DNA of 39,194 nt from Paludibacteraceae bacterium. Its GTDB lineage: Bacteria; Bacteroidota; Bacteroidia; Bacteroidales; Paludibacteraceae. A program made the translations under genes and the position numbers. The first letter of the stretch is position 1; the number at the start of each line of letters is the position of its first letter. This document shows, one piece after another, positions 1 through 26,358 of the stretch. The stretch lies in contig JAFSXJ010000130.1 of NCBI GenBank assembly GCA_017444065.1, forward strand, positions 1-39,194, in the 5' to 3' direction. Under the pieces are notes generated by a model. The model saw only the letters and a program-made list of their open reading frames with translations. It did not search any database and was not told the origin of the DNA.

Positions 1-825
1 GACTTGCAACTCATCACAAAGGAGCAGTTCGATGCCGAAGAGGCAAGCCCCATCATCCTTGAGAACGACAACTTCGAGACAATTGACACCATCATCTTCA
101 ATCCTGTTACCTTTGAGGTGACTATCGGAGGCAAGATAGCCCAACCGGTAACAGCCATCGACGTTCTTTCCGACCTTGCTGAGGAACCGACGTACATCAG
201 TTCGTCGTCCGTCAGGAAGGAGTACCTCGGCGCAAAGGTGTTCTTCGACAAGGACAGCGAAGTGGAGATTAACGGTGTCGGTGACCTTGAGAAAGCATAC
301 AACCTCGACTGGATGGAGTACCTGGGCGGCAACAAGGTTAAGTTCCTCGGTGACAAGGGCATGTACTACCTGTCGTACAAAGTGGCGGAGGACTACCTCG
401 TAGTAGAACCGCTGTACGACCTGACCGAGCCTGACGTGATGTACCTGTGCGGTGTAGGTATGGGTCAGCCCTCATGGACGCCTAAGGCTACCAGCGGCTG
501 GGGATTTGACAGCCCGAACCAGAACCTCGTAGGCCGACTCATCGCTCCGAAGACATACCAGTTCACCGTATATATGCTCAATGATACGGAGAACACCGAT
601 CACCCGGGCTTCGGCAGTGTGAACTTCAAGTTCTTCCACCAGCACGGCTGGGGTGGTGAGGAGACGTCGTTGGACTACACGCAGAACGGTCTGAACATCG
701 TCAGCTCCAACGAGGATAGCAATGTCGGCAACTGGTGGTCAAGTTCTGAACCGTTGTTCGAGGGCATCTACCGCATTACGCTGGACAAGAATAAAATGGA
801 AACAAAATATGAGAAAGTGCGCTAA
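1..825 (+). CDS. Surface glycan-binding protein (SusE/SusF position), C-terminal part
   Basis: The reading frame is open from the first base and ends at a TAA at 823-825, so the gene begins before the window and only about 274 codons are visible. The TTG at 4 is inside the gene, not a start. The visible part is rich in Trp, Tyr, Gly and Asp and looks like a stack of beta-sandwich modules; the last ~120 residues (from GWGFDSP) have the aromatic-rich look of SusE/F-type glycan-binding domains. Its position directly before a GH30 lipoprotein, with one base between stop and next start, matches surface glycan-binding proteins of Bacteroidetes polysaccharide loci, where they bind glycan at the cell surface and SusC/SusD would lie upstream. 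The family call rests on context and overall character; I see no catalytic motif. Confidence 0.6.
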   Translation, partial: DLQLITKEQFDAEEASPIILENDNFETIDTIIFNPVTFEVTIGGKIAQPVTAIDVLSDLAEEPTYISSSSVRKEYLGAKVFFDKDSEVEINGVGDLEKAYNLDWMEYLGGNKVKFLGDKGMYYLSYKVAEDYLVVEPLYDLTEPDVMYLCGVGMGQPSWTPKATSGWGFDSPNQNLVGRLIAPKTYQFTVYMLNDTENTDHPGFGSVNFKFFHQHGWGGEETSLDYTQNGLNIVSSNEDSNVGNWWSSSEPLFEGIYRITLDKNKMETKYEKVR

Positions 826-826
826 T

Positions 827-2323
827 ATGAAACACCTGCTGATTCTATCCCTTGCAGTCCTGCTCATGGCAGGCTGCAAGGATCCGAACACCAATCCGGA
901 CAACCAAAAACCCGACACCCCGACTACGCAGCATGACCTGATGACCTATATCACCACGGCGGACAACACGATGCACTTCGACAAGGTGGGCAAGAACTTC
1001 TCAGAGGGGCTGAATATGAGTCCGGAGATAACGTTGACGCTTGACCCCAAGACACGTTACCAGACCTTTGACGGTTTCGGTGCCGCCATCACGGGCGCAA
1101 GTGCGTATAACCTCAGCCGGATGCCTGCTGATGCGCGTGCCAAACTCCTCAAGGAGACTTTCAGCGTAAGCGAAGGCATGGGGTACAGTTATGTACGTGT
1201 ACCTATCGGCGGTTCGGACTTCAACGTGCACAGCAACTATGACTACACTTGCTGCGACCAGTTCGGCATCGAGAACTTCGCCCTCACATCCGACGAGACG
1301 GATTATATCATCCCTATCCTGAAAGAGATTCTTGCTATCAATCCGGACCTGAAGATTATGGGCACGCCCTGGAGTTGCCCGAAATGGATGAAGGTGGATG
1401 ATGTGGATAAGAAAGGCGCGTACAACTCGTGGGTAGGCGGTTATCTCAATCCCGACTACTATCAGGATTACGCCATGTACTTCGTGTATTGGATTCAGGC
1501 GTTCGAGCGTGCCGGTGTTCCTATCGAAAGTGTGACCGTGGAGAACGAGCCGCTTAACTGGGGCAACTCAATGTCGCTGTACATGCCCTGGCAGCAGGAG
1601 CGTGATTTTGTCAAGACGGCTCTTGGTCCGACCTTCGAGGCAACAGGCCTGCAAACCAAAATCATCGTCTTTGACCACAATTACAACTACGATGGCAAGG
1701 AAGACCAGAACGACTATCCGCTCAAGATTTACAACGACGCCACTGCTGCCAAGTACATTGACGGTGCAGCCTATCATAACTATGGCGGCAGTCCGACAGA
1801 GTTGGAGCAGATTCACCAGGCTGCGCCCGACAAGAATCTGTACTTCACCGAGGCGTCCATTGGCACATGGAACAGCGGCAATGACATGAGTGTGTCGCTC
1901 ATGAGCGAGATGAAGAACACCTGTCTGGCTACGGTTATGCGCTGGTGCAAGGCGGTCATCGTGTGGAACTTCATGCTGGATGACAACAACGGCCCTCACG
2001 GTGGTGCAGGCGCATGCTCAACATGCTTTGGCGCGGTGGATCTGTCCAGCAAGGACTATACCACGCTCACCAAGCGCAGCCACTACTACGCCATTGGTCA
2101 CCTGAGTAAGGCGTTCAAGACCGGCTCGACGCGCATTGGCGTCAAAGGCTATCAGCCCTCAAACGTCACGATATGTGCTGCCGAGAACCCTGATAGCACC
2201 TATGGTGTGGTACTGATGAATGAGAACAGCGAGGGTGTGAAGATGCAGATTGAGGCAGGCAGCAAGTATTTCAGCCTGACTCTTCCGGGCAGAAGTGTCA
2301 CAACCTGTGTTATCCCCCAATAA
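827..2323 (+). CDS. GH30 family glycoside hydrolase, lipoprotein
   Basis: A 498-residue glycoside hydrolase of the GH30 (glucosylceramidase-like) family. The ATG at 827 is preferred over the upstream GTG because it gives a clean lipoprotein signal ending LLMAGC with Cys17 as the lipidated residue, and it sits one base after the previous stop. The (beta/alpha)8 barrel starts near YQTFDGFGAAITGASA; the acid/base Glu241 is in VENEP and the nucleophile Glu342 in YFTEAS. A Cys pair (ACSTC) and a C-terminal beta domain follow. Many Bacteroidetes enzymes of this type are GH30_3 endo-beta-1,6-glucanases, so beta-1,6-glucan is a reasonable but unproven substrate. As a lipoprotein next to a glycan-binding gene it is probably at the outer membrane. 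A second GH30 with different targeting lies at 9099-10634. Confidence 0.9.
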   Translation: MKHLLILSLAVLLMAGCKDPNTNPDNQKPDTPTTQHDLMTYITTADNTMHFDKVGKNFSEGLNMSPEITLTLDPKTRYQTFDGFGAAITGASAYNLSRMPADARAKLLKETFSVSEGMGYSYVRVPIGGSDFNVHSNYDYTCCDQFGIENFALTSDETDYIIPILKEILAINPDLKIMGTPWSCPKWMKVDDVDKKGAYNSWVGGYLNPDYYQDYAMYFVYWIQAFERAGVPIESVTVENEPLNWGNSMSLYMPWQQERDFVKTALGPTFEATGLQTKIIVFDHNYNYDGKEDQNDYPLKIYNDATAAKYIDGAAYHNYGGSPTELEQIHQAAPDKNLYFTEASIGTWNSGNDMSVSLMSEMKNTCLATVMRWCKAVIVWNFMLDDNNGPHGGAGACSTCFGAVDLSSKDYTTLTKRSHYYAIGHLSKAFKTGSTRIGVKGYQPSNVTICAAENPDSTYGVVLMNENSEGVKMQIEAGSKYFSLTLPGRSVTTCVIPQ

Positions 2324-2377
2324 GAATATAATGAGCAATCATTATATAATAGTTAACTATTTAAAAACAAAAACATC

Positions 2378-3616
2378 ATGAAAAAGTTATTTACTTTTGC
2401 AATGGCATTGATGGCCGCAATGGCTATTAACGCTACCGACTATTATTTCGCAGGCGCAGCGAATGGTTGGAGCAACAACAACGACAGTTACAAGTTTGTT
2501 GAGGTAGAAGGTGTTCTCACCCTTGAAGTAGAGGATCTGTACGGCGACTTCAAGGTTACCGAGAACGGATCATGGCATCCTCAGCACGGTGCTGCAGCAT
2601 CAGGTGAAGGTGTAGCGCTGAACGGCAGCTACAACCTCGTAAAATGTGACGACAGCGAGGGCGAGAAAGACGCTCCCGCGAACTGCACGATTCTTATCCC
2701 TGAGAATCAGACAGAGGGTGCTGACTATCGTTACAAGAACGCCAAGCTCACGCTTAACGCCGCTAATCCTGACGCACTGGTTATCTCGCTGGTATCAGGT
2801 ACGCTGTATGATCACAGTGCTGCACCGAAGACCTATCAGATTGTAGGCGCATTCAACAGTTGGGATGCAGCCGGTGCTCCTTCGTTCGAGGATGTGAACG
2901 GTGTGCTTACGGTTACGGTTGAGAACCTCAGTGGTACGTTCAAGATCATCGAGGATCACGCTTGGACCAATCAGTGGGCGACGAACTGGGAGACCGGTGC
3001 CGGTCTGGCTATGGGTGAGCCGTACGTACTCGGTGCGAAGGGTGAGAAGGAACCGGATAACCTCTCATTGGCTAATCCGTTCGGCGGCTACAAGAACGCT
3101 GTGCTCACGCTTGACATCAGTGGCGAGAATTTCGTTCTTACGCTCGTTAGCGGTACGTTCGAGCAGATGCAAGCCGACTGGTATATTCCCGGCAGCAAGC
3201 TCGGCTGGAACTGCGATGCGACGACGAAGTTCGACGCTGTGGAAGGTCAGACAAACACCTACGAGTTGCTGCTGGCTGAGTTCGGCGGAGAGTTCAAGGT
3301 TGTATATGGAGACTGGGCAGTCGAGTTCGGTGCACCGAAGGGCGAAGACGGAAACTGGAACGTGAACACTCCTATAGAACTTGCCTTCCCCTGCGACAAC
3401 ATGAAGCCCGAAGATCCTGACGCTGTTTATCAGGATGTGACGCTCACTCTTGTAGTGGATTATGAGAAGGTGGAAGCAACCCTGACTATTGCTACCGAGG
3501 GTTCGGCTGTTGAGACAGTCAAGCTCAACGCCAAGAGCATCAAGCGCATCGAGAACGGACAGGTTGTTATCGAGAATAACGGCGTTCGTTACCATGTGAA
3601 CGGCATTGCCCAATAA
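2378..3616 (+). CDS. Secreted protein with three SusE/F-like binding repeats
   Basis: A 412-residue exported protein with a Sec signal peptide (MKKLFTFAMALMAAMAINA, cleavage near residue 19) and no lipobox. Three repeats cover about residues 21-143, 152-263 and 267-373. Each opens with a YYFAGAANGW / YQIVGAFNSW / WYIPGSKLGW motif and contains GDFKV / GTFKI / GEFKV followed within a few residues by Trp. This is the layout of carbohydrate-binding beta-sandwich domains such as those of SusE/SusF. No catalytic motif is visible, so a glycan-binding role is inferred. The last ~27 residues form a tail, IENGQVVIENNGVRYHVNG, that closely resembles the end of the second GH30 in this locus. A poly-A-rich leader precedes the ATG and a hairpin follows the stop. 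Confidence 0.7.
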   Translation: MKKLFTFAMALMAAMAINATDYYFAGAANGWSNNNDSYKFVEVEGVLTLEVEDLYGDFKVTENGSWHPQHGAAASGEGVALNGSYNLVKCDDSEGEKDAPANCTILIPENQTEGADYRYKNAKLTLNAANPDALVISLVSGTLYDHSAAPKTYQIVGAFNSWDAAGAPSFEDVNGVLTVTVENLSGTFKIIEDHAWTNQWATNWETGAGLAMGEPYVLGAKGEKEPDNLSLANPFGGYKNAVLTLDISGENFVLTLVSGTFEQMQADWYIPGSKLGWNCDATTKFDAVEGQTNTYELLLAEFGGEFKVVYGDWAVEFGAPKGEDGNWNVNTPIELAFPCDNMKPEDPDAVYQDVTLTLVVDYEKVEATLTIATEGSAVETVKLNAKSIKRIENGQVVIENNGVRYHVNGIAQ

Positions 3617-3630
3617 GCATGCCGGTTTAG

Positions 3631-3657
3631 TCACGGGAGGCCGATTACCTCCCGTGA
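3631..3657 (+). terminator. Intergenic hairpin, weak terminator or attenuator
   Basis: A perfect 10-bp stem (TCACGGGAGG with CCTCCCGTGA, 7-base loop) lies 14 bases after the stop of the three-repeat protein and about 40 bases before the next ATG. Only three Ts follow, then CTAC, so termination may be partial. It may set unequal expression of the two flanking secreted proteins, or protect the 3' end of the upstream message. Confidence 0.5.
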
Positions 3658-3694
3658 TTTCTACAAAAATTGATAACCATTAAAAACAACTTAT

Positions 3695-6600
3695 ATGAAA
3701 CGCTCTACTCTTCTTCTGGCAGTGCTCTGCATGCTGAGTTTTGCCCACGCGGAGACTGTTACCCGCACGTTCTATTTCGACTTCGGTATGGATGGTGGTA
3801 CGCGTGGCACCCTTACCACCTCGCCTGACGCCAACGGGCACTACTGGAACAATATCGGCGACAAGGAGGTTGCAAGCAACAAACCCTCGCAGGATTATGT
3901 GTATACCATCGTTGATGCAGCCAATACGGCGACGGATGTCAAGGTTCAGTTAGCCGGCACGAAGTTCACCGCTAACGGTATGTCCGGCGGTGGCGGTCTG
4001 CTTGAGCCAGATGCCGAACTGCTGGGTGACCTGGCTGTAGCAACAGCAACATCCGACTATCTGTTTGCGTCGAACAGCGAGCATTGCACAATAGAGATCA
4101 GCGGTCTGGATGAGGCGAAAGGCTATCAATTCAAGGTTTTTGGCAGCCGTGTGGCGACCGACGTACGCATCAGTGATTACACGTTCCGCGGCGCATGGGC
4201 TATACAGGGTATCCTGCAGGCTGCTGGAAGCGGCATTGGTGCCAACGGCGAGAACCAGAACACAAGCAATGTATGGCTCACGCCGGTAATGAAGCCTTCT
4301 GCTGACGGCAAGATCAGTCTGACCGTACATCGCAACTATGCCGCATCGCAGCCGTACTTCCCCATCAACTGCATGCGTATGCAGGAGATGACCGACCTGC
4401 ATGTGGCACAGAAAGAGATTTACATCGACTGTGGTCACAACGACGGCAGCAATGGCGAACTGACTGCTGCACCGGATGCCAACGGCATATACTGGGTGAA
4501 CCTCTATGACAACAGCACCTCTGCCGCACCGGTTGCACTGACCTATAAGGACGGATCAGCTGTGAATGGCGGAGCGAATGTGACTATCGCCACTGCGTTC
4601 TCCCGCAACGGCTATATCAACGGCGGTAACACGGCGGAGACCTATTCGGCGTTGCTGGGCGTGTTCGGGCAGAAATCTGTTGCCGGCGACTACTTCTTCG
4701 TTAACAAGAAGGTCGCACAGATGAAGTTCAACGGGCTCAATCCTGACAGGGCGTATGTCTTTTATATCTTCGGTTCGCGCGCGTACAACTCCTCGTTCGG
4801 GCAGACCGTGGACAAACTCAAGCTGGAAGGTCTGACCACCGTTACCGGCACGCACCACACAGGAGGTAACGGCATGTGCTACTCCGGCGCGTCCAACGGC
4901 TGGAACGAGGATGCCTTCACCGTGATGGAGCCTGTCTTCCCCGATGCCGACGGAGCTATCATGCTCACCCTGAGCGATGAGCGTGGCAGTTACCAGCATA
5001 TCAATGCCATGCGCATCGAGGAGTATAGCGATTATGCCAAGCCAACGCCTGCCGAGGAGACCAAGTATGCCGCCTTGCTGATGAAAGGTACGGCGGTTGA
5101 AGGCGGACAGGTGGCAATGTATCTGCGTGCCGCTGACGGCAAGACCGAAGGCACGTCGTTCGAGACCTTCTGCCGCATGACCAACGGCGGTACATTGTCG
5201 TTCGAGACACCCGAAGGAACGAAACTATCCGAGACAACCTGCGCCCTGGCGGATGGCATCTATCGCATCGTTTACAATACTACAGCCAAGACCTTCAGCT
5301 CGCTGGCCATCAATCGTGTTGGTCTGGTTGGTAACATCACCACTGCCGGCTGGAATGCGGCAGGCGTGGCACTGACCTATCGTGGAAACGGCGTATGGCG
5401 CGACACGCTTGACCTACCGGCTTATACCACAGGTGAAGATGCAGAACGCGGACAGTTCTGCATGAATAGCTCATGGGACTATACCGTTAAGGCACGCGAC
5501 GGCAAGGAGGGTATAGTCGGCTTTACACCCGACCAGTCGGACTGCGGCTTCAGCGTTGAGGACATACCTATGCGTCACGGTCGTAAGGATGTGATGCTTG
5601 ATATGCAGAACTTCATCTACAGCATAGAGTGCATGGAGATTACCGACAACAAGATAACCTTCTTCGGCTCGTCGGTTTGCAACGGTCAGGGAGCGGAAAC
5701 GGTCAACTATGTTAAGCACGGCTATGCTTGGCAATTCGGGCAACTGCTTGCGGCGCGCCATGAGGCGGACAGTAACCTGCCCGAGTACGAGTACTCCAAC
5801 AGTTCCATCAACGGAAACAACACCCTCAATCTCCTTGCACGATACCAAGGGCACATGTATGGCGACTGCGGCAAGTATGTCGTTATCGGCCTTGGTCTGG
5901 GTAACGAGGGTATCCACGGTGCCGCTAATCAGCAGGCTATATACGACCAGTGGAAGACGAACATGGGCAAACTCATCGACCTCGGAGAGGACGAGGGAAA
6001 AGTGGTCATCGCTTCCAACAACTACACGCGTGGCGACTACAATGCTACCGATTATGGCTATGTCAAGCAGATGAACCTTGAGATGCATGAGTGGGATATA
6101 CCGACCATCAACCTTCTGGGCGCGGTGGATAACTGCAAGGGCAACGGTCAATGGGCGGACGGTTACCAGAACGGGGACGACATCTACCACCCCAACCACA
6201 CGGGGCACACCGAGATGATGCACACAATCGTACCGTCACTGTTTGACGCACTGGCTGCTGGCAAAGCCAAACCCGCACGCCAGACAGGCGAAGGTGTAAC
6301 CCTGACTGCCAAGCAGAAGATTGAGTTTGTGCCCGAAGACGAGGTGCACGCATTCACACTTGCGTTCCGCGTCAAGAACATCAGTGCGTTGAAACTCGCG
6401 CTGACCGCCAGCGAAGGCACTGCTCCTGAAGTAGGAAGCACTATTGCCGACGACAACTGGCACACGCTGGTCGTTTCGCACTACTATGCTGCAGGCAAGA
6501 CATACATCTATATTGATGGCGTACAGCAAGGTGATGCGCTCAGTGGCAAGATGGTTCTCGGCAAAGTGACTGTCAGTGGCCTGTGCACCATCAGCGACCT

Positions 6601-6895
6601 CAGTTTCTGGCGGGCTGGTATGAACGCCGACGAGGTGGCAGCCTTCATCGCCGGCAGGATGCTCTGCTCATCGCTCGAAATATATTGCCCGCTCAACGAT
6701 GGCGCTGTCACTAACCTCGCGCAATCAACCAACACCATTAGCCTCATCACCGACGAAAGCACCGCTATTGGGCAGATAGAGGACAAAAGGGTAAATGACA
6801 AAATGGTAAATGGTTTTACAGTCCTCGGCCAGCCTGCCGCACCGTCCTTTCGCGGCGGAGTGGTGATTGTGGACGGCAAAAAGGTTATACGCTGA
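3695..6895 (+). CDS. Large secreted SGNH/GDSL hydrolase with duplicated N-terminal and LamG domains
   Basis: A 1066-residue exported protein; the signal peptide ends at FAHA (residue 19). Two homologous domains follow, at about 25-232 and 241-445. Each opens with a DxGxxxGxxGxLTxxPDANGxYW pattern and closes with an INCMRM/INAMRI motif. A CBM-like stretch (VGLVGNITTAGWN) leads to an SGNH hydrolase domain at about 650-860. Its block I is FFGSSVCNGQG with Ser660 as the expected nucleophile, block III is GLGLGNEG (Gly736-Asn737), and the Asp/His pair is D829-I-Y-H832 before PNHTGH. A concanavalin/LamG-like domain spans about 880-1030 (DNWHTLVVSHYY, TYIYIDGVQ). SGNH enzymes of this kind are often esterases that deacetylate glycans; the actual substrate is unknown. 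The protein ends in GGVVIVDGKKVIR, a possible sorting tail. Confidence 0.72.
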   Translation: MKRSTLLLAVLCMLSFAHAETVTRTFYFDFGMDGGTRGTLTTSPDANGHYWNNIGDKEVASNKPSQDYVYTIVDAANTATDVKVQLAGTKFTANGMSGGGGLLEPDAELLGDLAVATATSDYLFASNSEHCTIEISGLDEAKGYQFKVFGSRVATDVRISDYTFRGAWAIQGILQAAGSGIGANGENQNTSNVWLTPVMKPSADGKISLTVHRNYAASQPYFPINCMRMQEMTDLHVAQKEIYIDCGHNDGSNGELTAAPDANGIYWVNLYDNSTSAAPVALTYKDGSAVNGGANVTIATAFSRNGYINGGNTAETYSALLGVFGQKSVAGDYFFVNKKVAQMKFNGLNPDRAYVFYIFGSRAYNSSFGQTVDKLKLEGLTTVTGTHHTGGNGMCYSGASNGWNEDAFTVMEPVFPDADGAIMLTLSDERGSYQHINAMRIEEYSDYAKPTPAEETKYAALLMKGTAVEGGQVAMYLRAADGKTEGTSFETFCRMTNGGTLSFETPEGTKLSETTCALADGIYRIVYNTTAKTFSSLAINRVGLVGNITTAGWNAAGVALTYRGNGVWRDTLDLPAYTTGEDAERGQFCMNSSWDYTVKARDGKEGIVGFTPDQSDCGFSVEDIPMRHGRKDVMLDMQNFIYSIECMEITDNKITFFGSSVCNGQGAETVNYVKHGYAWQFGQLLAARHEADSNLPEYEYSNSSINGNNTLNLLARYQGHMYGDCGKYVVIGLGLGNEGIHGAANQQAIYDQWKTNMGKLIDLGEDEGKVVIASNNYTRGDYNATDYGYVKQMNLEMHEWDIPTINLLGAVDNCKGNGQWADGYQNGDDIYHPNHTGHTEMMHTIVPSLFDALAAGKAKPARQTGEGVTLTAKQKIEFVPEDEVHAFTLAFRVKNISALKLALTASEGTAPEVGSTIADDNWHTLVVSHYYAAGKTYIYIDGVQQGDALSGKMVLGKVTVSGLCTISDLSFWRAGMNADEVAAFIAGRMLCSSLEIYCPLNDGAVTNLAQSTNTISLITDESTAIGQIEDKRVNDKMVNGFTVLGQPAAPSFRGGVVIVDGKKVIR

Positions 6896-7167
6896 ATCCG
6901 GCATCAGAAAGTTGCTCATTTACTGTATGTTCGAATCTTCATCGGGGTTGATTCGGAAGCAAATCGAAGGCATTTCGAGGTTTTATCGGACTTTGCATGA
7001 AGTCCCCCACACAGCCTCTGCACCCCAATGAAATTAGTTTATGGTTATTGATGTCTTTGGCTCATTTTTGACCAACGTTTAATAAGTGCACAGGATAATT
7101 CCCTTTAGTCGGAGTATTATCACTAAAAGCAACAAATTGTTTAATATTAACCAAAAAATCTGTATAT
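6896..7167. other. 272-bp intergenic region
   Basis: There is no ORF of note, no strong hairpin and no clear TAnnTTTG element with correct spacing. The last ~30 bases are an A/T-rich leader of the kind used in place of a Shine-Dalgarno site in this phylum. A promoter for the next gene is likely here but I could not place it. Confidence 0.4.
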
Positions 7168-8931
7168 ATGAAACGTTCGTTTACTTTATCCACACTCTTA
7201 TTCATGTCCCTTCTCATGTTTGCGGGCAATGGCGAGGGATCCTGTGGTGTATATTTGCTCGTTAACGGAACATCACAAAACTATCGTTTGACCAGTACGG
7301 ACTGGGGAAACAACGGCATAACGGCATCTCTTAACGGTTGTACTGAATTATCAGGCGTAGATTTGGGAACAATTAAGACCCTTACTTTATGTGGCGGTCA
7401 AATGACTGCATGGGCAAATGAGAACGACTATTATGAAGACAACTCGTTCCGTGTGGCATACCGCGTATATAAACAAGGAGAAACTGCACCTGAAGAGTGG
7501 GAGACCTTATCATTGGATGAACTGACTTATCGGCAGGACAACAACTATCGTTACGAAGCCACCGACAAAACAATTGACTTACGTGCTATGACAGATGGTC
7601 GCGGCGGCACATGGGTTTTTGAGGCAAAGATGCTGGGACACAAATACTGGAATAACGGCAGTTCTTCCGACTCATGGGACACCAATCATGACCCTGAATC
7701 GGCAACCTTTACTCTGCCAGGCACCTACTACATTACAGGAGCAGGTGGCAATGATGCCAACGGAAATTGGTGCGATGGCAAGAACTGGACGAGTGCAACC
7801 GATGTTACTATGAGTAGTAGTTCGCACACTTTCTATAATGTGGCAGCAGGTACTTACGGCTGCAAAGTGACAAGCGGTTCGTGGGGCGCAAATAATGAAT
7901 TCGGCTACGCTGAAATAGATATTGAAGCAAGCGACGCCAACATCTGGAGCAAGGAGAATAACAATATTTCCATCATAACAGACGCGCCGTCGGACATTAC
8001 GATTCATTTCAATGCGTGCACTGGCAAGGTGTCTGTTACCAGCACACTCGGACGGTTTGTACGCTTGCCCTATTCGGTAGTAGGAGATCCTGTCTTAGGG
8101 GTAAACTGGGAACCGACAAATACTGCTACCGAAATGACGCGTTTGGATGACGGCACTTATCAGTATACATTACGTGACCAAGAACTGACTGCTGGCAGCG
8201 GAAAGCAGTTCAAGATTGTGGGCGGTCATGCGTGGAGCACATATCAAGCTCCGGCATCCGGAGATTTCACTGTGGATATTCCCGAAAATGGCACTTATGA
8301 TCTGATATTTGATTTTAACCCGACGACCGACCTTGCTACCTGTTCGTTGATGCTGCACCACGATGTGAGTATCTCCGCGTACGGATACAGCACCTTCTAT
8401 AGCGACAGGGCATATATCGTACCTGAGGGATTGACAGCAACCATCTTTACGGGCGTGAGCGGTGAAGCTCTGACCGGCGAGAGTATCACAATTATTCCTG
8501 CTAACACGGGAGTGGTGCTGCAAGGCACACCTAATGCAACCTATACGTTGTTGCAGACCACTACAAGCGACTCGTATCCCGCCAACCTGCTGCAAGGCAC
8601 TGTCAGCGCAACGGTAATCAGCAACAGCTATGTGCATTATATCCTTGGCGTCAACAGCGGTAATTGCGGTTTGTACTGGCCTAACGGCACAACGGAAGGT
8701 GTCGGCTCCTTCACCAATGGCACCGGCAAAGCATATCTTGAACTCAGCCCTGCGGCTGCACCGGCACGGGTGCGCGGATTTGTATTATCCGGTACCAACA
8801 CCGCCACAGCTGTTGAGAATATCAGCAGCGACACCCCCGATGTATATTACGACATACTCGGGCGCAAGGTGGTTGAACCGAAACAGGGAAACATATACAT
8901 CCGCAACGGCAAAAAAACAGTACTGTTCTAA
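7168..8931 (+). CDS. Secreted multidomain glycan-binding-type protein, function unknown
   Basis: A 587-residue exported protein with an N-terminal signal (MKRSFTLSTLLFMSLLMFAG). The first ~170 residues form a beta-rich domain (VYLLVNGTSQNYRLTSTDW). The middle carries modules with GTYYITGAGG and FKIVGGHAWSTYQ, similar in pattern to the binding repeats of the protein at 2378-3616. The C-terminal third has a YGYSTFYSDRAYIVPEGL segment that I recognise as frequent in secreted Bacteroidales proteins but cannot assign a function to. The end, YYDILGRKV...IYIRNGKKTVLF, is the short tail common on exported Bacteroidales proteins and resembling T9SS type A sorting sequences. No catalytic motif is seen. 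Its codon use is more A/T-rich than that of its neighbours at the 5' end. Confidence 0.6.
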   Translation: MKRSFTLSTLLFMSLLMFAGNGEGSCGVYLLVNGTSQNYRLTSTDWGNNGITASLNGCTELSGVDLGTIKTLTLCGGQMTAWANENDYYEDNSFRVAYRVYKQGETAPEEWETLSLDELTYRQDNNYRYEATDKTIDLRAMTDGRGGTWVFEAKMLGHKYWNNGSSSDSWDTNHDPESATFTLPGTYYITGAGGNDANGNWCDGKNWTSATDVTMSSSSHTFYNVAAGTYGCKVTSGSWGANNEFGYAEIDIEASDANIWSKENNNISIITDAPSDITIHFNACTGKVSVTSTLGRFVRLPYSVVGDPVLGVNWEPTNTATEMTRLDDGTYQYTLRDQELTAGSGKQFKIVGGHAWSTYQAPASGDFTVDIPENGTYDLIFDFNPTTDLATCSLMLHHDVSISAYGYSTFYSDRAYIVPEGLTATIFTGVSGEALTGESITIIPANTGVVLQGTPNATYTLLQTTTSDSYPANLLQGTVSATVISNSYVHYILGVNSGNCGLYWPNGTTEGVGSFTNGTGKAYLELSPAAAPARVRGFVLSGTNTATAVENISSDTPDVYYDILGRKVVEPKQGNIYIRNGKKTVLF

Positions 8932-9007
8932 CTATTCTTCGAGAACCTTTTGAAGACTGATCGAACGACATTCATATGTAATAAAACAACTACAATTCGC
9001 TGCAACA

Positions 9008-9124
9008 ATGAAAAAGATATATATGCAACCTATCACTGAGTGTATGCTGCTTGCGCCATGCGCAGCCATCCTCAAAGTGTCGAATCTCAACAACGATTAT
9101 GCAGACCCCGATTCTCAATTGTAA
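9008..9124 (+). CDS. Small 38-residue ORF overlapping the next gene
   Basis: An ATG at 9008 opens 38 codons (MKKIYMQPITECMLLAPCAA at the start, ending DYADPDSQL) closed by TAA at 9122-9124. The MKK(I/Q)Y-x-(Q/T)P-x-(T/I)E beginning is a pattern I know from numerous short hypothetical proteins of Prevotella and Bacteroides. It overlaps the start of the second GH30 (ATG 9099) by 26 bases in another frame, so its translation could couple to or compete with that gene. It may be a real small protein, a leader peptide or chance; function is unknown. Confidence 0.45.
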   Translation: MKKIYMQPITECMLLAPCAAILKVSNLNNDYADPDSQL

Positions 9125-10634
9125 ACGCGCGCTGACTGCTATGTTGTTGATGGCGGTCAGCACCGTTCTTTGTGCGCAGACGGGCACATCGGAAGCATGG
9201 GCGACCAATAGCAGCAAACGCATGGAGCATCAAGCCGCGGCGGCGTTATCCGCGACCACAAGTGCCTCAGTACGTATCGTTCTGCATCCCGAGCAGACCT
9301 ACCAGACTATTGATGGCTTTGGTTGGATGCTTAATCAGGGCAGTGCCAAGCTGCTGATGCAGTTGCCTGCCGACAAGCGGCGTGCTACGCTTGAGGAGTT
9401 GTTTGGCTCTGACGGGTTGAATGCTTCCATGGTACGTGTAGCTATTGGCGCATGTGACTTGAGCGAGAGCGACTATACCTATGCCGACAGCAAGGACGAG
9501 ACCCTGTCCAACTTCGTCATCGCACAGCAGGACCTCACGACCGTTGTGCCCGTGCTACAGGAGATAATCACCATCAATCCCAAGGTGAAAGTGCTGGCGT
9601 GCTCATGGACCGCACCTACATGGATGAAGACTGGCACTGCATGGTACAATAGTTATGTGGACGGAACACTCAAAACCGATTATTACAACCTGTATGCAGA
9701 TTACTTCATCAAGTACATCAACGCTATGTCGGCATGGAACATCCCCATCTGGGGTATCAGTGTGCAGAACGAACCGCTCAACAACCACAACGACCCCAGC
9801 ATGACCTGGACCAAAGAGGCGATGTACAAGTTCATCGCAGGCAGCCTCGGACCCAAGCTCCGCGAAAGTGCGTACAACAACGTGCGGATAATCGCCTACG
9901 ACCACAACTGCGACGTGACGGATTTCCCCATCCATGTGGCGAAAAGCAAGTATGTCTACGGTACGGCATTCCATCTCTATGCTGGTGACATTTCTGCCCT
10001 TGCTAACGTGTATAACAGCACCGGCAAACCCGTTCTCTTCACCGAGCAATATACGGGCAAGGACGGCGACTTCTCCGGTGACCTCGACTGGCATACGCAG
10101 AACGTTATACTCGGCTCGCTTAAAAACATGTCCACCACCGCATTGGAGTGGAATCTCTGCTCCGACCCGAACTACAGCATTCACACCTCCGGAGGCTGTA
10201 CGACTTGCAAAGGGGCGCTGACCGTCAACGGCAGTTCTCTCACGGCGCGGAACGTCAGTTACTACATCATCGGTCATGCATCGCGCGTCATTGATGCGGG
10301 TGCGGTACGGATAGGAGCCGCCTCGTCGGCATCCAACCTCAATTATGCCGCCTGCCAAAACCCCGACGGCAGCATAGGTGTCGTCGTATATAACAGTTCC
10401 GACCAGGCACGTACTCTGGCAGTCGCCCTGCCCGACCAGAGTGGGCAGACCCTCTACGCCGACCACACGCTGCCCGCCAAAGGCGTCCTGTCGGTACGTA
10501 TCCGCAGTCATAGCAATACTGCCACTGAACAACTCACCGCCGAACGGTGCGCTGCCAAGACCATTGAGAATGGTAGCTTGATCATCAACCACAATGGTCA
10601 TCGATACAATGCCTTGGGGTTGCAAATAAGGTAA
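9099..10634 (+). CDS. GH30 family glycoside hydrolase, secreted
   Basis: A 511-residue GH30 hydrolase. The ATG at 9099 gives a signal peptide (MQTPILNCKRALTAMLLMAV, then STVLCAQ) without a usable lipobox, unlike the lipoprotein GH30 at 827-2323. The upstream start at 9051 would place a charged, non-signal stretch first. The domain begins at YQTIDGFGWMLNQGSA; acid/base is Glu225 (VQNEP) and nucleophile Glu316 (LFTEQYTG). A Cys pair (GCTTC) is conserved with the other GH30, and the two look like distant paralogues. The protein ends with IENGSLIINHNGHRYNALG, almost the same pattern as the tail of the three-repeat protein at 2378-3616, which suggests shared export or anchoring. Beta-1,6-glucanase activity is possible by family; exo- or endo-action cannot be told. 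Confidence 0.88.
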   Translation: MQTPILNCKRALTAMLLMAVSTVLCAQTGTSEAWATNSSKRMEHQAAAALSATTSASVRIVLHPEQTYQTIDGFGWMLNQGSAKLLMQLPADKRRATLEELFGSDGLNASMVRVAIGACDLSESDYTYADSKDETLSNFVIAQQDLTTVVPVLQEIITINPKVKVLACSWTAPTWMKTGTAWYNSYVDGTLKTDYYNLYADYFIKYINAMSAWNIPIWGISVQNEPLNNHNDPSMTWTKEAMYKFIAGSLGPKLRESAYNNVRIIAYDHNCDVTDFPIHVAKSKYVYGTAFHLYAGDISALANVYNSTGKPVLFTEQYTGKDGDFSGDLDWHTQNVILGSLKNMSTTALEWNLCSDPNYSIHTSGGCTTCKGALTVNGSSLTARNVSYYIIGHASRVIDAGAVRIGAASSASNLNYAACQNPDGSIGVVVYNSSDQARTLAVALPDQSGQTLYADHTLPAKGVLSVRIRSHSNTATEQLTAERCAAKTIENGSLIINHNGHRYNALGLQIR

Positions 10635-20693: not shown

Positions 20694-21812
20694 ATGAAAA
20701 CAATTACAAACTCTACAAAATGGTTTTGCATGCTTTGCATGATGGCTGCGATACAGTCATGCGGCATTGATATGCCAAAGTCCAAACCTTCATCATTTGA
20801 AACATTGACAGTCACCAAATCTGACATTACGCTGCCGATGAAATTCAGTGCCAAGATGCGCGGTCAGAACGACGCCACCATCATGCCTCAGGTGAGCGGT
20901 CAGTTGACGCAGATATGCGTAAGCGAAGGCCAGCAGGTGCAGAAGGGGACAGTGCTATTCAAGATTGACTCGCGTAATGCAGAGTTGGAACTGGAAGCTG
21001 CTCAAGCAAATCTGCTGGCAGCTGAGGCCAACGAGAGCAGCGCAAAGATGGAATGGGAGTCGAACAAGAACCTCTTCCATAAGAACATCGTCAGCCGCTA
21101 CATGCTGGACAATGCAGAGAACAACTACAAGCAGGCGCAAGCGTCTGTACGCCAAGCCCAGGCAACCGTCAACCGTGCTCATGTGAACCTCGGTTTCTGT
21201 ACAATCACCGCACCAGTGACGGGTGTCATCGGCAGTATTAACTACCGTGTAGGCGATCAAGTTTCGCCAGCCTCGCAGTTGACGCTGCTGAGCGGTAACG
21301 AGAAGATGCAGGCAGAGTTCTCCCTCAATGAGTCACTGATTGAGGAGCAGGTGTCATTGGGACTATCGAAGAGCGATGTGGAGAAGTACCTCCATTCGCT
21401 GCCCGACGTGACGTTTGTGATGAAGAATGGAACGGAGTATCCTAACAAGGGACGTATCACGAGCCTCACCGGCGTGGTGGATGCCACAACGGGTACGCTT
21501 GCCTGCAAGGCGACATTCCCGAACCCCGATGGACATTTGTTCTCAGGTATTCAGGGCACTGTGGTATTGCCAATGGATGAGAAAGATGTAATGGTTATAC
21601 CGCAGTTGGCTGTAGTCCGTCTGCAGGACAAACGCCTCGTATATGTCGTGCAGCCGGACAGCACGGTTGTATCGGCTACCATTACAACCGAAGATACCGG
21701 TAACGGCAAGGATGTGATAGTCACTTCGGGTCTGAACGTAGGCGACCGCATCGTTACGGTAGGCGCCAACAACGTACAAGAGGGACAACGGGTGCTTTAC
21801 CCTGAAAACTGA
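20694..21812 (+). CDS. RND efflux periplasmic adaptor, lipoprotein
   Basis: A 372-residue membrane fusion protein (AcrA/MexA type) that links an RND pump to an outer-membrane channel. The signal ends MAAIQSC with Cys23 as the lipid anchor. It shows the biotinyl-lipoyl halves (VSEGQQVQKGTVLFKIDSRN and VNLGFCTITAPVTGVIGSIN), an alpha-helical hairpin rich in Ala/Gln/Glu between them, and a beta-barrel/MP domain that includes DRIVTVGANNVQEGQRV. The pump gene starts 7 bases after its stop. A 54-base gap precedes it; I saw no matching promoter there. Confidence 0.95.
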   Translation: MKTITNSTKWFCMLCMMAAIQSCGIDMPKSKPSSFETLTVTKSDITLPMKFSAKMRGQNDATIMPQVSGQLTQICVSEGQQVQKGTVLFKIDSRNAELELEAAQANLLAAEANESSAKMEWESNKNLFHKNIVSRYMLDNAENNYKQAQASVRQAQATVNRAHVNLGFCTITAPVTGVIGSINYRVGDQVSPASQLTLLSGNEKMQAEFSLNESLIEEQVSLGLSKSDVEKYLHSLPDVTFVMKNGTEYPNKGRITSLTGVVDATTGTLACKATFPNPDGHLFSGIQGTVVLPMDEKDVMVIPQLAVVRLQDKRLVYVVQPDSTVVSATITTEDTGNGKDVIVTSGLNVGDRIVTVGANNVQEGQRVLYPEN

Positions 21813-21819
21813 TTCCTAA

Positions 21820-24800
21820 ATGCAAACATCTATGAAAGGCAATATATTCATCAACAAATATGTGATGGCATGTGCGATATCGATTGTCATCATGTTGGTG
21901 GGCTTCATCAGCATCGTCACTCTGCCTATTGAGCAGTATCCTAACATTGCGCCACCTACAGTACGTGTAACAACTTCATACACAGGAGCTGACGCCAACA
22001 CTATCATGAAATCTGTGGTGCAACCACTGGAAGAGAGCATTAACGGCGTGCCTGGTATGACTTATATCACCTCATCAGCTTCCGCATCGGGCGAAGTTTC
22101 CATACAGGTGTATTTCAAGCAAGGTATCGACCCTGATCTGGCAGCCGTCAACGTGCAGAACCGTGTCAGCAAAGCCACGGCACTCCTGCCATCGGAAGTG
22201 ACCAAAGTGGGTGTGCAGGTGATGAAACAACAGAACAACATCCTGCATATCGGTGCACTCAAATCGACCGACGGCAAGTATGACGCAGACTTTATCTCCA
22301 ACTACATAGACATCAACATCAAGCCCCGTCTGATGCGTATCACCGGTGTGGGTGACGTGATGTCGCTGGGTAACACATACGCCCTGCGTATATGGCTCAA
22401 GCCGGACGTAATGGCGCAGTATGGTCTTGAACCGAATGATGTGTTTGTCGCTATCGGCGGGCAGAGTTTTGTGGCAGCTACGGGTTCGCTGGGCGAACGC
22501 TCGGAGAATGCGTACCAGTACTCCATGGAGTACAAGGGTACACTCAAAACTGTCGAGGAGTTCAACGACATAGTGCTTCGTACGACGGACGGCGGTCACC
22601 TGCTGCACCTGAGTGACGTAGCGGATGTGGAGATAGGTGCGGTCAGCTATAACTTCACCTCGAACATCGACGGAAAGCCCGGTACGTTGTTTATGGTGTT
22701 CCAGGCACCGGGGGCCAACGCCACGGAGGTAAACGCACGCATTCATCAGTTGTACGAGGAACTCAAGCCAACTATGCCTGCTGGCTTGGAGTTCGAAATC
22801 CTTCAGACCTCCGATGACTTCCTCTTTGCCGCTATCCACAATGTGGTTGAGACTCTGGTCATCGCCATCCTTCTGGTTATTCTGGTCGTATATTTCTTCC
22901 TTCAGAGTTTCAAGGCAACCATTATCCCGTCGATATCCATTATCGTGTCGCTGCTGGGTACGTTCGCCATTGTCAAATTGGCCGGATTCTCGCTTAACAT
23001 ACTGACGCTCTTTGCCTTGGTTCTCGCCATCGGAACGGTGGTTGACGACGCGATAGTCGTCGTCGAAGCGGTGATGGCGAAGATGGAAGGCGGTATCAGT
23101 GATGCCCGTGAGGCAACCCGTCAGGCGATGAGCGAAGTATCAGTTGCGGTAGTGTCGTGTACACTCGTCTTCATGGCAGTGTTCATACCTGTAGCATTCA
23201 TGCCGGGAACATCCGGAAGCTTCTTCCTGCAGTTCGGCGTGACGTTGGCTTCGTCAGTAGGATTGTCATGTGTCTCGGCGTTGGTACTTTGTCCCGCTTT
23301 GTGCGCATTGATGATGAAGTTCGACCCGAACGAGAATGAGAAGAAAAGTTTCAACTACTATGTAAAGAAAGCCTATACTGTCAGCTATAATGCTATCGCC
23401 GGCAAGTACAAGAGCGGTGTGCAGAAGTTCATCAAACGCCCGTGGGTGTCATGGGTGCTGCTGGTGGGTGCTGCTGTGCTGCTTGTTTTCGCAATGAAGG
23501 GGCTGCCGTCAGGTCTTGTGCCGCAGGAGGATCAGGGTGTATTTTTTGCCGAGGTGCGTGCTCCTGAAGGATGTACGCTTCACGAGACTGAAGAGATTGT
23601 AAGCAAGGTAGAGGAAAAAATCAAGAAGATTCCCGAACTGGAGAGTTACGCCGTCGTTAATGGCTACGGTATGATGTCCAACAGTTCGGCAAGTTCCTAT
23701 GCTACCCTCATCATCCGCCTCAAGAACTGGGATGACCGTCCGGGCATGAACCATCTCATTGATCTTGTGTATTCCCGTTTCGCGATGGATTGTCAGGAGA
23801 TAAAGAACGCTGTCGTCATTCCGTTCCAGATGCCGCAGGTACCGGGTTACGGTTCAAGCAACTCGGTCAACCTTGTGCTGCAGGATACACAGGACCGCCC
23901 GATGTCAGAGTTCAACGAAGATGCCATGAAGTTTATCGCCCGTCTCAACGAACGGCCTGAGATTATGCTGGCTATGAGTACGTACTCCGAGCGTTTCCCT
24001 AAATACGAAGTGAGCATTGATGCCGCTCAATGCGACCGCGCAGGTGTTACGCCGGCAGCGGTGCTCAACACCCTTGGTTCATACTGTGGTGGTGCCTATG
24101 TGGGCAACTTCAACCAGTTCGGCAAGGTTTATCGTATCATGGCGAATGCTTCACCCGAGTACCGTCTTGACCCGTCGAGTCTCCATAACATCTTCGTGCG
24201 TGTGGGCAACGGTAAGATGGCACCTATATCGGAGTTCGTCACCCTGAAAGAGATTGTCGGCTCGGCTTCGGTGGAGCACTTCAACCTGTACCAGAGTATC
24301 ACCTGCGGTGTGATGGCCGCAAGCGGCTGTTCGGAAGGCGATGCGCATAAGGCTATAGCGGAAGTATTCAAGGAGACGATGCAGGCCGGCTACAGTTACG
24401 AGTACGGCGGCAGGTCACGTGAGGTGGAAGAGACTGCCGGCAGCAATGCTACTGCCCTCATCTACCTCGTCTGCGCCATCCTTATCTATCTCATCCTTGC
24501 CTCGCTCTATAACAGCTGGTTCACGCCTTGGGCAGTGCTACTCAGTGTACCGTTCGGCCTGATGGGTTCGTTCGGTGTTACCTACCTCGTTTCGCTGCTG
24601 CACCTGCCGGGCATGGAGAATAACATCTACTTGCAAACCGGTGTTATTATGCTCATTGGTTTGCTCGCCAAGACCGCCATCCTTATCACCGAGTTCGCAC
24701 AGGAGCGCCGTGCACAAGGTATGAGTATCCGCGATGCGGCGTTTGCTGCCTGCGAGGAGCGTCTGCGTCCGATTCTGATGACTGTTGTTACGATGATTGC

Positions 24801-26358
24801 CGGTATGATTCCGCTTATCATCGCGGGTGGTGCAGGTGCTAACGGCAACCGTGTGCTTGCCTTGGGCGTTACCGCCGGTATGGCCGTTGGTACACTTGCA
24901 CTGCTGTTCGTCGTACCTACGTTCTTCATCGTCTTCCAGACGCTGCATGAGAAATTCCAAGGCGGTGCGCCGGTGGAGGCCAGGCAGGTAACAGTCTTGC
25001 TTGCGGTATGCGTGATGAGCATAGCATTCACGAGTTGTGGAATATACGGCAAGTACCAGTCGCAATCGGAAGTATCGTCCGACCTGTACGGCAAGACCGA
25101 TGATATAACTGCAGCCTCAGCTGACAGTTCGATAGCCACGCTATCGTGGCGTGAGGTGTTTGTTGACCCGACGCTACAGAACTTGATTGACAGCGCATTG
25201 GCACGTAACACCGACCTCAACTCGGCACGCATAGCCATCGAGCAGTCGCAAGCGTCTCTCAAAGCAGCCAAACTTGGTTACCTGCCGTCGTTGTCATTGG
25301 CTCCGCAAGCCGGCTATAGCGGCAACATCACGGGCAATGCGTACGCACCGGTATATAACGTGCCCATTCAGATGAACTGGGACATTGACATCTTCGGCAC
25401 AAACTACAATCAGGTGCAGAAATCCAAAGCGCTTGTCCGTCAGGCGGAGATACGCAGACAGGCGGTGCAGGCTAACCTCGTTTCTGCAGTGGCGCAGCAG
25501 TACTTTACGCTGCAACTTCTGGATCGCCAACTGGAGATACTCACCCGTACTGACAGCCTGTGGAACATCTCGCTTGAGACGCAGCGCGCGCTCTTTGAGA
25601 ACGGCAAAGGCTACTCGACCGGCGTAAGCCAGATGGAGAATTCCTACCTGAACGTCAAGCGGCAGATTATCGAGGTGCAGCGCAGCATACGCAGCGTGGA
25701 GAACAGCATCTGCAAGTTGCTTGCTGTCACGCCGCAACATATAGAGCGCAGTGCGTGGAGTACGTTCACGCTGCCTGATCGGGTCAGCACGGGAGTGCCG
25801 GCTCAACTGCTGACCAACCGTCCGGATATACAGATTGCCGACCAGCAGCTTGCCGAGGCGTTCTACAACACGCAGGCGGCACGCTCGGCGTTCTATCCCA
25901 AACTGTCGCTGCAAGGGATACTTGGCTGGGGCAACAGCAGCGGGCAGATACCTAATCCTGGTGCACTGCTGTTCAATGCGCTCGCCTCACTCACACAGCC
26001 TATCTTCGCACAGGGCAGGTTGCGCGCCAATCTGAAGATAAGCAAACTGACGCAGGAGGATATGCAGCGCAAGTACGTACAGACCGTCATCAACGCCGGT
26101 AATCAGGTCAACGAAGCACTTGCCGACTGTCAGACTGCCAAGGAGAAAGACGTGTTGTACAAACGGCAGGTTGAGGTGCTTACTGATGCGTACGACGGCA
26201 CGCACGAACTGATGGATGCCGGCAAGGCGAACTACCTCGAGGTGCTCACATCGCAAGAGACGCTGCTTTCTGCACAACTCAACGAGGCAACGAACCTTTA
26301 CGATGGGGCACGAGCACTCATAACCTTGTACATCGCACTTGGTGGTGCAACCAAGTAA
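21820..26358 (+). CDS. RND efflux pump fused to NodT/OprM-type outer-membrane lipoprotein
   Basis: One uninterrupted 1512-codon frame. Residues 1 to ~1045 are a complete HAE1-type RND transporter: TM1 near 8-32, porter domains, the proton-relay Asp409-Asp410 in GTVVDDAIVVVE, Lys951 in LLAKTAILITEF, and TM12 ending at VFQTLHEKF. A short linker (QGGAPVEARQ) leads to a hydrophobic stretch VTVLLAVCVMSIAF and the lipobox FTSC with Cys1073. Residues 1073-1512 are an outer-membrane factor of the NodT family (TLSWREVFVDPTLQNLIDSA, LTNRPDIQIADQQLAEA, YLEVLTSQETLLSAQLNEA). These parts are normally separate genes. Possible readings are a true fusion matured by signal peptidase II, internal initiation (an in-frame GTG lies at 24973), or loss of a stop through sequence error. 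Confidence 0.9.
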   Translation: MQTSMKGNIFINKYVMACAISIVIMLVGFISIVTLPIEQYPNIAPPTVRVTTSYTGADANTIMKSVVQPLEESINGVPGMTYITSSASASGEVSIQVYFKQGIDPDLAAVNVQNRVSKATALLPSEVTKVGVQVMKQQNNILHIGALKSTDGKYDADFISNYIDINIKPRLMRITGVGDVMSLGNTYALRIWLKPDVMAQYGLEPNDVFVAIGGQSFVAATGSLGERSENAYQYSMEYKGTLKTVEEFNDIVLRTTDGGHLLHLSDVADVEIGAVSYNFTSNIDGKPGTLFMVFQAPGANATEVNARIHQLYEELKPTMPAGLEFEILQTSDDFLFAAIHNVVETLVIAILLVILVVYFFLQSFKATIIPSISIIVSLLGTFAIVKLAGFSLNILTLFALVLAIGTVVDDAIVVVEAVMAKMEGGISDAREATRQAMSEVSVAVVSCTLVFMAVFIPVAFMPGTSGSFFLQFGVTLASSVGLSCVSALVLCPALCALMMKFDPNENEKKSFNYYVKKAYTVSYNAIAGKYKSGVQKFIKRPWVSWVLLVGAAVLLVFAMKGLPSGLVPQEDQGVFFAEVRAPEGCTLHETEEIVSKVEEKIKKIPELESYAVVNGYGMMSNSSASSYATLIIRLKNWDDRPGMNHLIDLVYSRFAMDCQEIKNAVVIPFQMPQVPGYGSSNSVNLVLQDTQDRPMSEFNEDAMKFIARLNERPEIMLAMSTYSERFPKYEVSIDAAQCDRAGVTPAAVLNTLGSYCGGAYVGNFNQFGKVYRIMANASPEYRLDPSSLHNIFVRVGNGKMAPISEFVTLKEIVGSASVEHFNLYQSITCGVMAASGCSEGDAHKAIAEVFKETMQAGYSYEYGGRSREVEETAGSNATALIYLVCAILIYLILASLYNSWFTPWAVLLSVPFGLMGSFGVTYLVSLLHLPGMENNIYLQTGVIMLIGLLAKTAILITEFAQERRAQGMSIRDAAFAACEERLRPILMTVVTMIAGMIPLIIAGGAGANGNRVLALGVTAGMAVGTLALLFVVPTFFIVFQTLHEKFQGGAPVEARQVTVLLAVCVMSIAFTSCGIYGKYQSQSEVSSDLYGKTDDITAASADSSIATLSWREVFVDPTLQNLIDSALARNTDLNSARIAIEQSQASLKAAKLGYLPSLSLAPQAGYSGNITGNAYAPVYNVPIQMNWDIDIFGTNYNQVQKSKALVRQAEIRRQAVQANLVSAVAQQYFTLQLLDRQLEILTRTDSLWNISLETQRALFENGKGYSTGVSQMENSYLNVKRQIIEVQRSIRSVENSICKLLAVTPQHIERSAWSTFTLPDRVSTGVPAQLLTNRPDIQIADQQLAEAFYNTQAARSAFYPKLSLQGILGWGNSSGQIPNPGALLFNALASLTQPIFAQGRLRANLKISKLTQEDMQRKYVQTVINAGNQVNEALADCQTAKEKDVLYKRQVEVLTDAYDGTHELMDAGKANYLEVLTSQETLLSAQLNEATNLYDGARALITLYIALGGATK

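Follow-up and report, generated by a model that had tools for sequence, protein, structure and literature searches.

A recurrent in-frame fusion of an RND pump and an outer-membrane channel across an internal lipoprotein-type signal in Bacteroidota

Structure of the fused gene

The window, by which we mean the whole stretch of 39,194 nucleotides analysed here, is contig C78 of a Paludibacteraceae draft genome that is 80.6% complete and consists of 145 contigs. On its forward strand, positions 21820-26358 form one frame, open for 1512 amino acids under translation table 11, in which an RND permease, an internal lipoprotein-type signal and a NodT-type channel follow one another. The initial annotation had described such a 1512-residue frame joining pump and channel, with an internal lipobox at Cys1073, and this description is confirmed by translation, by Pfam and NCBIfam models and by homologues. 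The frame is separated by 7 bases from the adaptor gene before it, whose product has a lipoprotein-like N-terminus of its own (QSC), and by 11 bases from an HD-domain gene after it. The features of the locus are as follows.

20694..21812, + strand: periplasmic adaptor (membrane fusion protein), from Pfam HlyD_D23 and NCBIfam RND_mfp (259.2 bits, cut-off 94.9)
21820..26358, + strand: single fused gene, 1512 amino acids, from ORF translation, Pfam/NCBIfam and homologues translated from DNA
21820..24954, + strand: RND permease part, residues 1-1045, from Pfam ACR_tran (residues 8-1039) and likeness to CmeB (5t0o, E 1.5e-215)
24955..24987, + strand: linker FQGGAPVEARQ, residues 1046-1056 (11 residues), expected to be cytoplasmic from general RND topology; contains an in-frame GTG at 24973-24975
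24988..25035, + strand: internal signal, residues 1057-1072, a hydrophobic stretch with lipobox VTVLLAVCVMSIAFTS, from translation, lipobox scan and conservation among homologues
25036..25038, + strand: lipobox Cys1073, predicted point of lipidation and of LspA cleavage; Cys present in 54/54 fused homologues
25036..26355, + strand: predicted mature channel part, residues 1073-1512, with SilC, CusC and OprM as relatives

The pump half carries a full-length RND domain, ACR_tran scoring 908.5 bits over residues 8-1039 against a Pfam gathering cut-off of 28. It also contains GTVVDDAIVVVE, which we take to be the TM4 proton-relay motif with its Asp pair, as expected of an HAE1 RND permease. CmeB, MexB and AcrB are among the related solved structures. 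Two NCBIfam subfamily models fall below their cut-offs, TIGR00915 just so (939.8 bits, cut-off 940.35) and NF000282 more clearly (1054.6, cut-off 1250), so we claim no subfamily name for the pump; the TIGR00915 cut-off is exceeded by two fused homologues, L150 and L166. In the channel half, OEP is matched in two stretches, the better at residues 1328-1508, with 178.6 bits against a gathering cut-off of 22, and the solved relatives are SilC, CusC and OprM (best E-values 5.1e-36, 1.5e-35 and 2.7e-34). The outer_NodT model of NCBIfam is covered almost end to end (model positions 2-459 of 460, residues 1065-1509) at 193.9 bits, below its cut-off of 210.05, and 'NodT-type' is therefore used here for a likeness and not as a filed name; L150 and L166 pass this cut-off too. 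The lipobox and Cys expected at the head of a NodT-type channel are present and conserved, but internal, and lipidation is a prediction.

The HAE1 systems CmeABC, MexAB-OprM and AcrAB-TolC use the same pump and channel families, with an adaptor gene beside the pump gene, but their pump and channel are separate polypeptides, whereas in the window they share one frame. Compared by description, the CusA-type RND-TolC fusions of Bacteroidetes likewise combine an RND permease with a C-terminal TolC-like domain, but are of the heavy-metal type, unlike the HAE1 type of the window.

In its own genome the fused channel matches NodT far better than any other frame does; the four weaker matches lie in frames of 448-494 amino acids, and the three further RND places found lie in frames of 1053-1086 amino acids (lengths from search tables). 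Genes for LspA and Lgt are both present in the same draft. Elsewhere in the window, three large frames lie between a pair of proteins of glycoside hydrolase family 30 (722-2323 and 9051-10634); two of these frames (2378-3616 and 3695-6895) have no Pfam match at E 1e-6, while the third (7168-8931) contains a pullulanase X25 domain; the region 722-10634 is perhaps a polysaccharide-use locus.

Sampling and occurrence

Related loci were collected through genus, family, order and named-contig searches. They comprise the best matches listed per search together with hand-picked places and are not a random sample; since they were picked by rank and hint among the matches listed, the numbers of fused and split loci given below are not prevalence figures. 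A pump end was present in 166 loci, eight of which have no channel beside the pump. Loci were called fused or split from direct translation only; frame lengths in search tables were not used, because translation uncovered an in-frame stop, and hence a split pair, at L157 and similar places. This gave, with identical entries set aside, 50 fused and 93 split loci in which the channel adjoins the pump. For the pump tree, duplicates and two short loci (L086 and L106) were dropped, leaving 141 loci, 48 fused and 93 split; the two short ones were returned for the lipobox counts, which thus cover 50 fused loci. One of them, L086 (G030:C70), has its pump part in more than one frame, and the same genome holds a split pair, L072. 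A first round of hint-picked regions (20, one a 10-base stub) yielded the NodT-type fusions L165, which repeats L150, and L166, and a fusion of another kind, L170; a second round of 15 included four that were fused. These four extra loci, from other families (L206, L207, L208 and L214), bring the fused proteins to 54 in all.

The fusion is real, recurrent and conserved in this family. In fetched DNA, the same single fused frame was seen in at least 35 of the 101 genomes of the genus, some of these relatives being 83-89% identical over the match, and it recurs across Bacteroidota, other families included. The window comes from a single incomplete draft genome, and an assembly or sequencing error could in principle have removed a stop codon; with the frame repeated in so many genus genomes and in other families, such an error is so improbable that we reject it for the family. 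Among homologues, which the initial annotation had proposed to search, the single frame and the Cys both recur. Relatives with a stop or frameshift between the domains, which it had named as evidence against the fusion, do exist, beside the fused genus genomes just counted. Given split relatives with overlapping or in-frame stop and start codons, fusion is better described as a condition of a common gene pair that was derived or came by exchange than as an error.

A plasmid search with residues 861-1512 produced no proven fusion among the 15 matches listed; several of these are annotated with separate pump and channel, and one (H3, a Phocaeicola plasmid), unannotated and known from the match alone, is in one piece. 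The initial annotation did not know this form among HAE1 pumps. Although it recurs across Bacteroidota, a full-text literature search for such fusions and for internal lipoprotein signals likewise listed no paper recognisable as describing an HAE1-channel fusion, which, with subscription papers mostly outside its scope, is weak evidence of absence. The passages considered from PMC8277102 and PMC4827864 describe no such fusion.

The junction

All 50 fused loci, and the four extra ones, have a hydrophobic stretch that ends in a lipobox-like site and a Cys. This Cys is kept in 54/54 fused proteins and forms the sole complete Cys column of the alignment, the next best reaching 50. A PROSITE-type lipobox pattern fits the junction in 51 of the 54 and fails at three (L089, L115 and L123), all with Pro at -2. 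The same pattern fits a Cys within the pump, at residue 484, in 46/54; it was accordingly rejected as sole evidence for being unspecific, and our argument is built on conservation of the Cys instead. (At one split locus, L076, the lipobox script missed the Cys, which was set by hand.)

Around the Cys the sequence is loosely kept. The distance from pump end to Cys ranges from 25 to 54 residues across the 50 fused loci, always in frame, and between positions -25 and -4 the commonest residue falls below 40% at 20 of 22 positions, the hydrophobic positions included in this variation. The exceptions lie next to the Cys, where -1 is Ser in 48/50 and the following residue Gly in 46/50. Codon differences in the linker (645 replacement against 255 silent, over 64 non-independent pairs) indicate weak constraint, and we do not therefore argue for strong selection on it. 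The eight residues preceding the uncharged stretch have a median of two Lys/Arg and no acidic residue in fused loci; the window has a weak n-region by this measure, its linker offering a single Arg, preceded at a distance of two residues by a Glu.

The uncharged stretch before the Cys has a median length of 17 in fused and 13 in split loci. Among independent pairs, with a threshold of 16, it is longer in the fused member in about six of ten and never the reverse (sign test, median p 0.03), the same test giving p 0.125 at thresholds 14 and 15; a Mann-Whitney test, whose very small p ignores kinship, was not used. Mean hydrophobicity of the stretch does not differ between fused and split loci (p 0.46). 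The lengthening in fused forms is suggestive; it would be in keeping with a thirteenth membrane helix, and would fit a membrane anchor as well.

Start codons of the channel

The channel might also be started independently inside the fused frame, the fusion being incidental. Usable starts are indeed kept in some loci, such as an ATG 22 codons before the Cys in L041 and, 21 codons ahead of it in the window, the in-frame GTG at 24973-24975, which may serve as a separate start. They are not conserved, however: no ATG, GTG or TTG occurs 14 or more codons before the Cys in 17 of the 50 fused loci, no ATG does so in 25, and an ATG followed by Lys or Arg ahead of the hydrophobic stretch is missing from 40. 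Split channel frames, by comparison, have at least one ATG before the aligned part in 93/93 cases. In 74 of the 93 split pairs no more than 30 bases separate the pump stop from its nearest ATG, and in 34 the ATG and the stop overlap as ATGA. Among the nearest split relatives (e.g. L043, L044 and L061) the channel occupies another frame with an overlapping ATG; in other split members of the genus (e.g. L013, L015 and L017) an in-frame stop is followed by an ATG.

One sister group records how such a junction may have closed. When fused L041 is aligned with split L043, L044 and L046, a gap in L041 covers the ATGA of the others, and the comparison shows, at the level of sequence, a fusion by loss of a stretch containing the overlapping stop and start. 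The deletion that fused L041 thus took the old stop-start overlap with it, which also counts against separate translation. With 17 fused loci devoid of a usable start codon, a conserved independent start is rejected as a general rule, and we regard separate translation of the channel as quite improbable. The initial annotation had named an independent channel start as an observation that would overturn its reading; across the family such a start is not conserved, and in the window itself the GTG may provide one.

Phylogeny of fused and split loci

On the pump tree, fused loci are interspersed with split ones. Over the 141 loci (FastTree) there are 11 changes between the two states, 10 of them forced by starred branches; a thinned pump set of 94 loci (IQ-TREE) has 13 changes, 12 forced, and the channel tree (137 loci) has 9, 8 forced, although several of its branches are long and leave individual joins uncertain. 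These changes may be gains or losses, which the counts do not separate.

Some apparent reversals look like exchanges of channels between lineages. The pumps of two split loci, L018 and L083, are closest to those of fused loci, and their channels to those of other, mostly split, groups, while the pump of fused L010 is nearest to a split locus and its channel to the fused group of the window. In these three loci, judging by the two trees, the channel and junction appear to have been exchanged together, so that whether a locus is fused or split follows its channel.

This pattern bears on whether fusion is of any benefit. Fusion and stop-start overlap could be equivalent forms of translational coupling, joined neutrally and with no advantage proper to the fusion, an account that is compatible with a cut polyprotein. 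It draws on the interleaving of the two states, with at least 10 forced changes, and on the frequency of the ATGA overlap among split pairs. Against it stands one pump-tree clade of 30 fused loci and a single split one, the channel of which is nearest to that of another group, although this asymmetry may reflect a one-way ratchet and not selection. We consider neutral joining a possibility of some weight, if not the favoured one.

Length of the periplasmic arm

The arm between the Cys and the first helix motif of the channel measures 25-41 residues in 49/50 fused loci and 31-40 residues in 70/93 split loci, counts that leave out the one fused and 23 split loci lacking the helix motif. Fused arms are therefore about as long as split ones or shorter, and at most one residue longer (41 against 40). 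Counted from the Cys, residue 31 of the window's channel is aligned to residue 30 of chain 3pik_A (CusC), which presumably begins at the mature Cys of CusC, making the arm about as long as that of CusC.

These lengths bear on a second fate that the initial annotation had offered beside a cleaved polyprotein, namely a permanent tether, in which the chain stays uncut, the signal serves as a thirteenth helix and the channel is joined to the pump across the periplasm. The longer uncharged stretch of fused forms agrees with it, and nothing in the sequence forbids an uncut chain. By the dimensions of AcrAB-TolC, however, a tether would need to bridge roughly 150 angstrom, whereas 25-41 residues reach about 90-145 angstrom when fully stretched; 26 residues would be too short, and 41 would come near. 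Fused arms have not been lengthened relative to split ones, and on these lengths the tether is disfavoured; it also assigns no role to a Cys kept in every fused protein. We rate it as unlikely. The polyprotein, in turn, is favoured by that invariant Cys, by the LspA and Lgt genes of the same genome and by the lack of a conserved independent start.

Fusions and insertions of other kinds

In L170 (1631-5998, - strand) one frame joins a pump most like RND_permease_2 (best model) to a TolC-type channel; the junction ends in SFNINA-Q, which resembles a signal-peptidase-I site. In the nine relatives examined a stop codon follows the pump, and six of the nine show a channel start in the same frame with an ordinary signal. 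From this one case of a retained type-I-like internal signal, the retention of internal signals may extend beyond lipoprotein channels. Separately, in two RND pumps with 1147 and 1152 open codons (L171 and L172, from G129 and G512) the halves are parted, after the position of window residue 510, by an insert (71 and 66 residues, respectively) that contains hydrophobic stretches and perhaps forms two extra helices.

Discussion

We propose that the fused product is probably a pump-channel polyprotein that LspA cuts into a pump and a lipoprotein channel, cleavage being deduced from the features of the junction. RND permeases end in the cytoplasm, so the linker and hydrophobic stretch would have the orientation of a lipoprotein signal. 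With the pump in the membrane and the end of its twelfth helix on the cytoplasmic side, this short linker and stretch would act as an internal lipoprotein signal for export of all that follows across the inner membrane. Lipidation of Cys1073 by Lgt and a cut before it by LspA would then free the channel, an N-terminally acylated lipoprotein, which would go on to the outer membrane. Because LspA cuts before the Cys, the old signal should remain with the pump as a thirteenth helix. Pump and channel would arise one for one, matching a trimer of the one with a trimer of the other, a ratio that split relatives may approach through overlapping stop and start codons. We infer each of these steps, from export to the benefit of a fixed ratio. 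Directly visible are the fusion and how it recurs, a lipobox that is conserved, the want of a channel start in many relatives, and the genes for both enzymes.

Two kinds of arrangement offer parallels. In Bradyrhizobium, fbcH encodes a cytochrome b/c1 polyprotein that is cut at an internal signal; like the gene of the window it places a polytopic membrane protein before an internal cleavable signal (a predicted one in the window) and an exported partner, but there the enzyme is the ordinary signal peptidase and the partner a c-type cytochrome, in place of a lipoprotein signal and an outer-membrane channel. The full-text literature search, aimed at this precedent as well, listed no paper on it. 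Nearer at hand, the relatives with an ATGA overlap (e.g. L061 and L084) encode the same proteins in the same order, with translational coupling likely, but as two proteins, the channel having its own ATG and usually a charged n-region, whereas the window encodes one.

A broader account can be offered tentatively, at somewhat less than even confidence: that across Bacteroidota HAE1 pumps have repeatedly become LspA-cut polyproteins, each yielding, one for one, a pump of 13 helices and a channel that is a lipoprotein, with the signal lengthened into a permanent helix and the loss of the channel start acting as a one-way ratchet, undone mainly by channel swap. Where annotation presumes separate genes, the channel of these bacteria may be misnamed. 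Were the polyprotein reading true, the lipoprotein signal peptidase would be the processing enzyme of a polyprotein, the numbers of pump and channel would be tied together, and these genes would be naturally fused material with which to ask whether the assembly of tripartite efflux pumps uses pre-paired parts.
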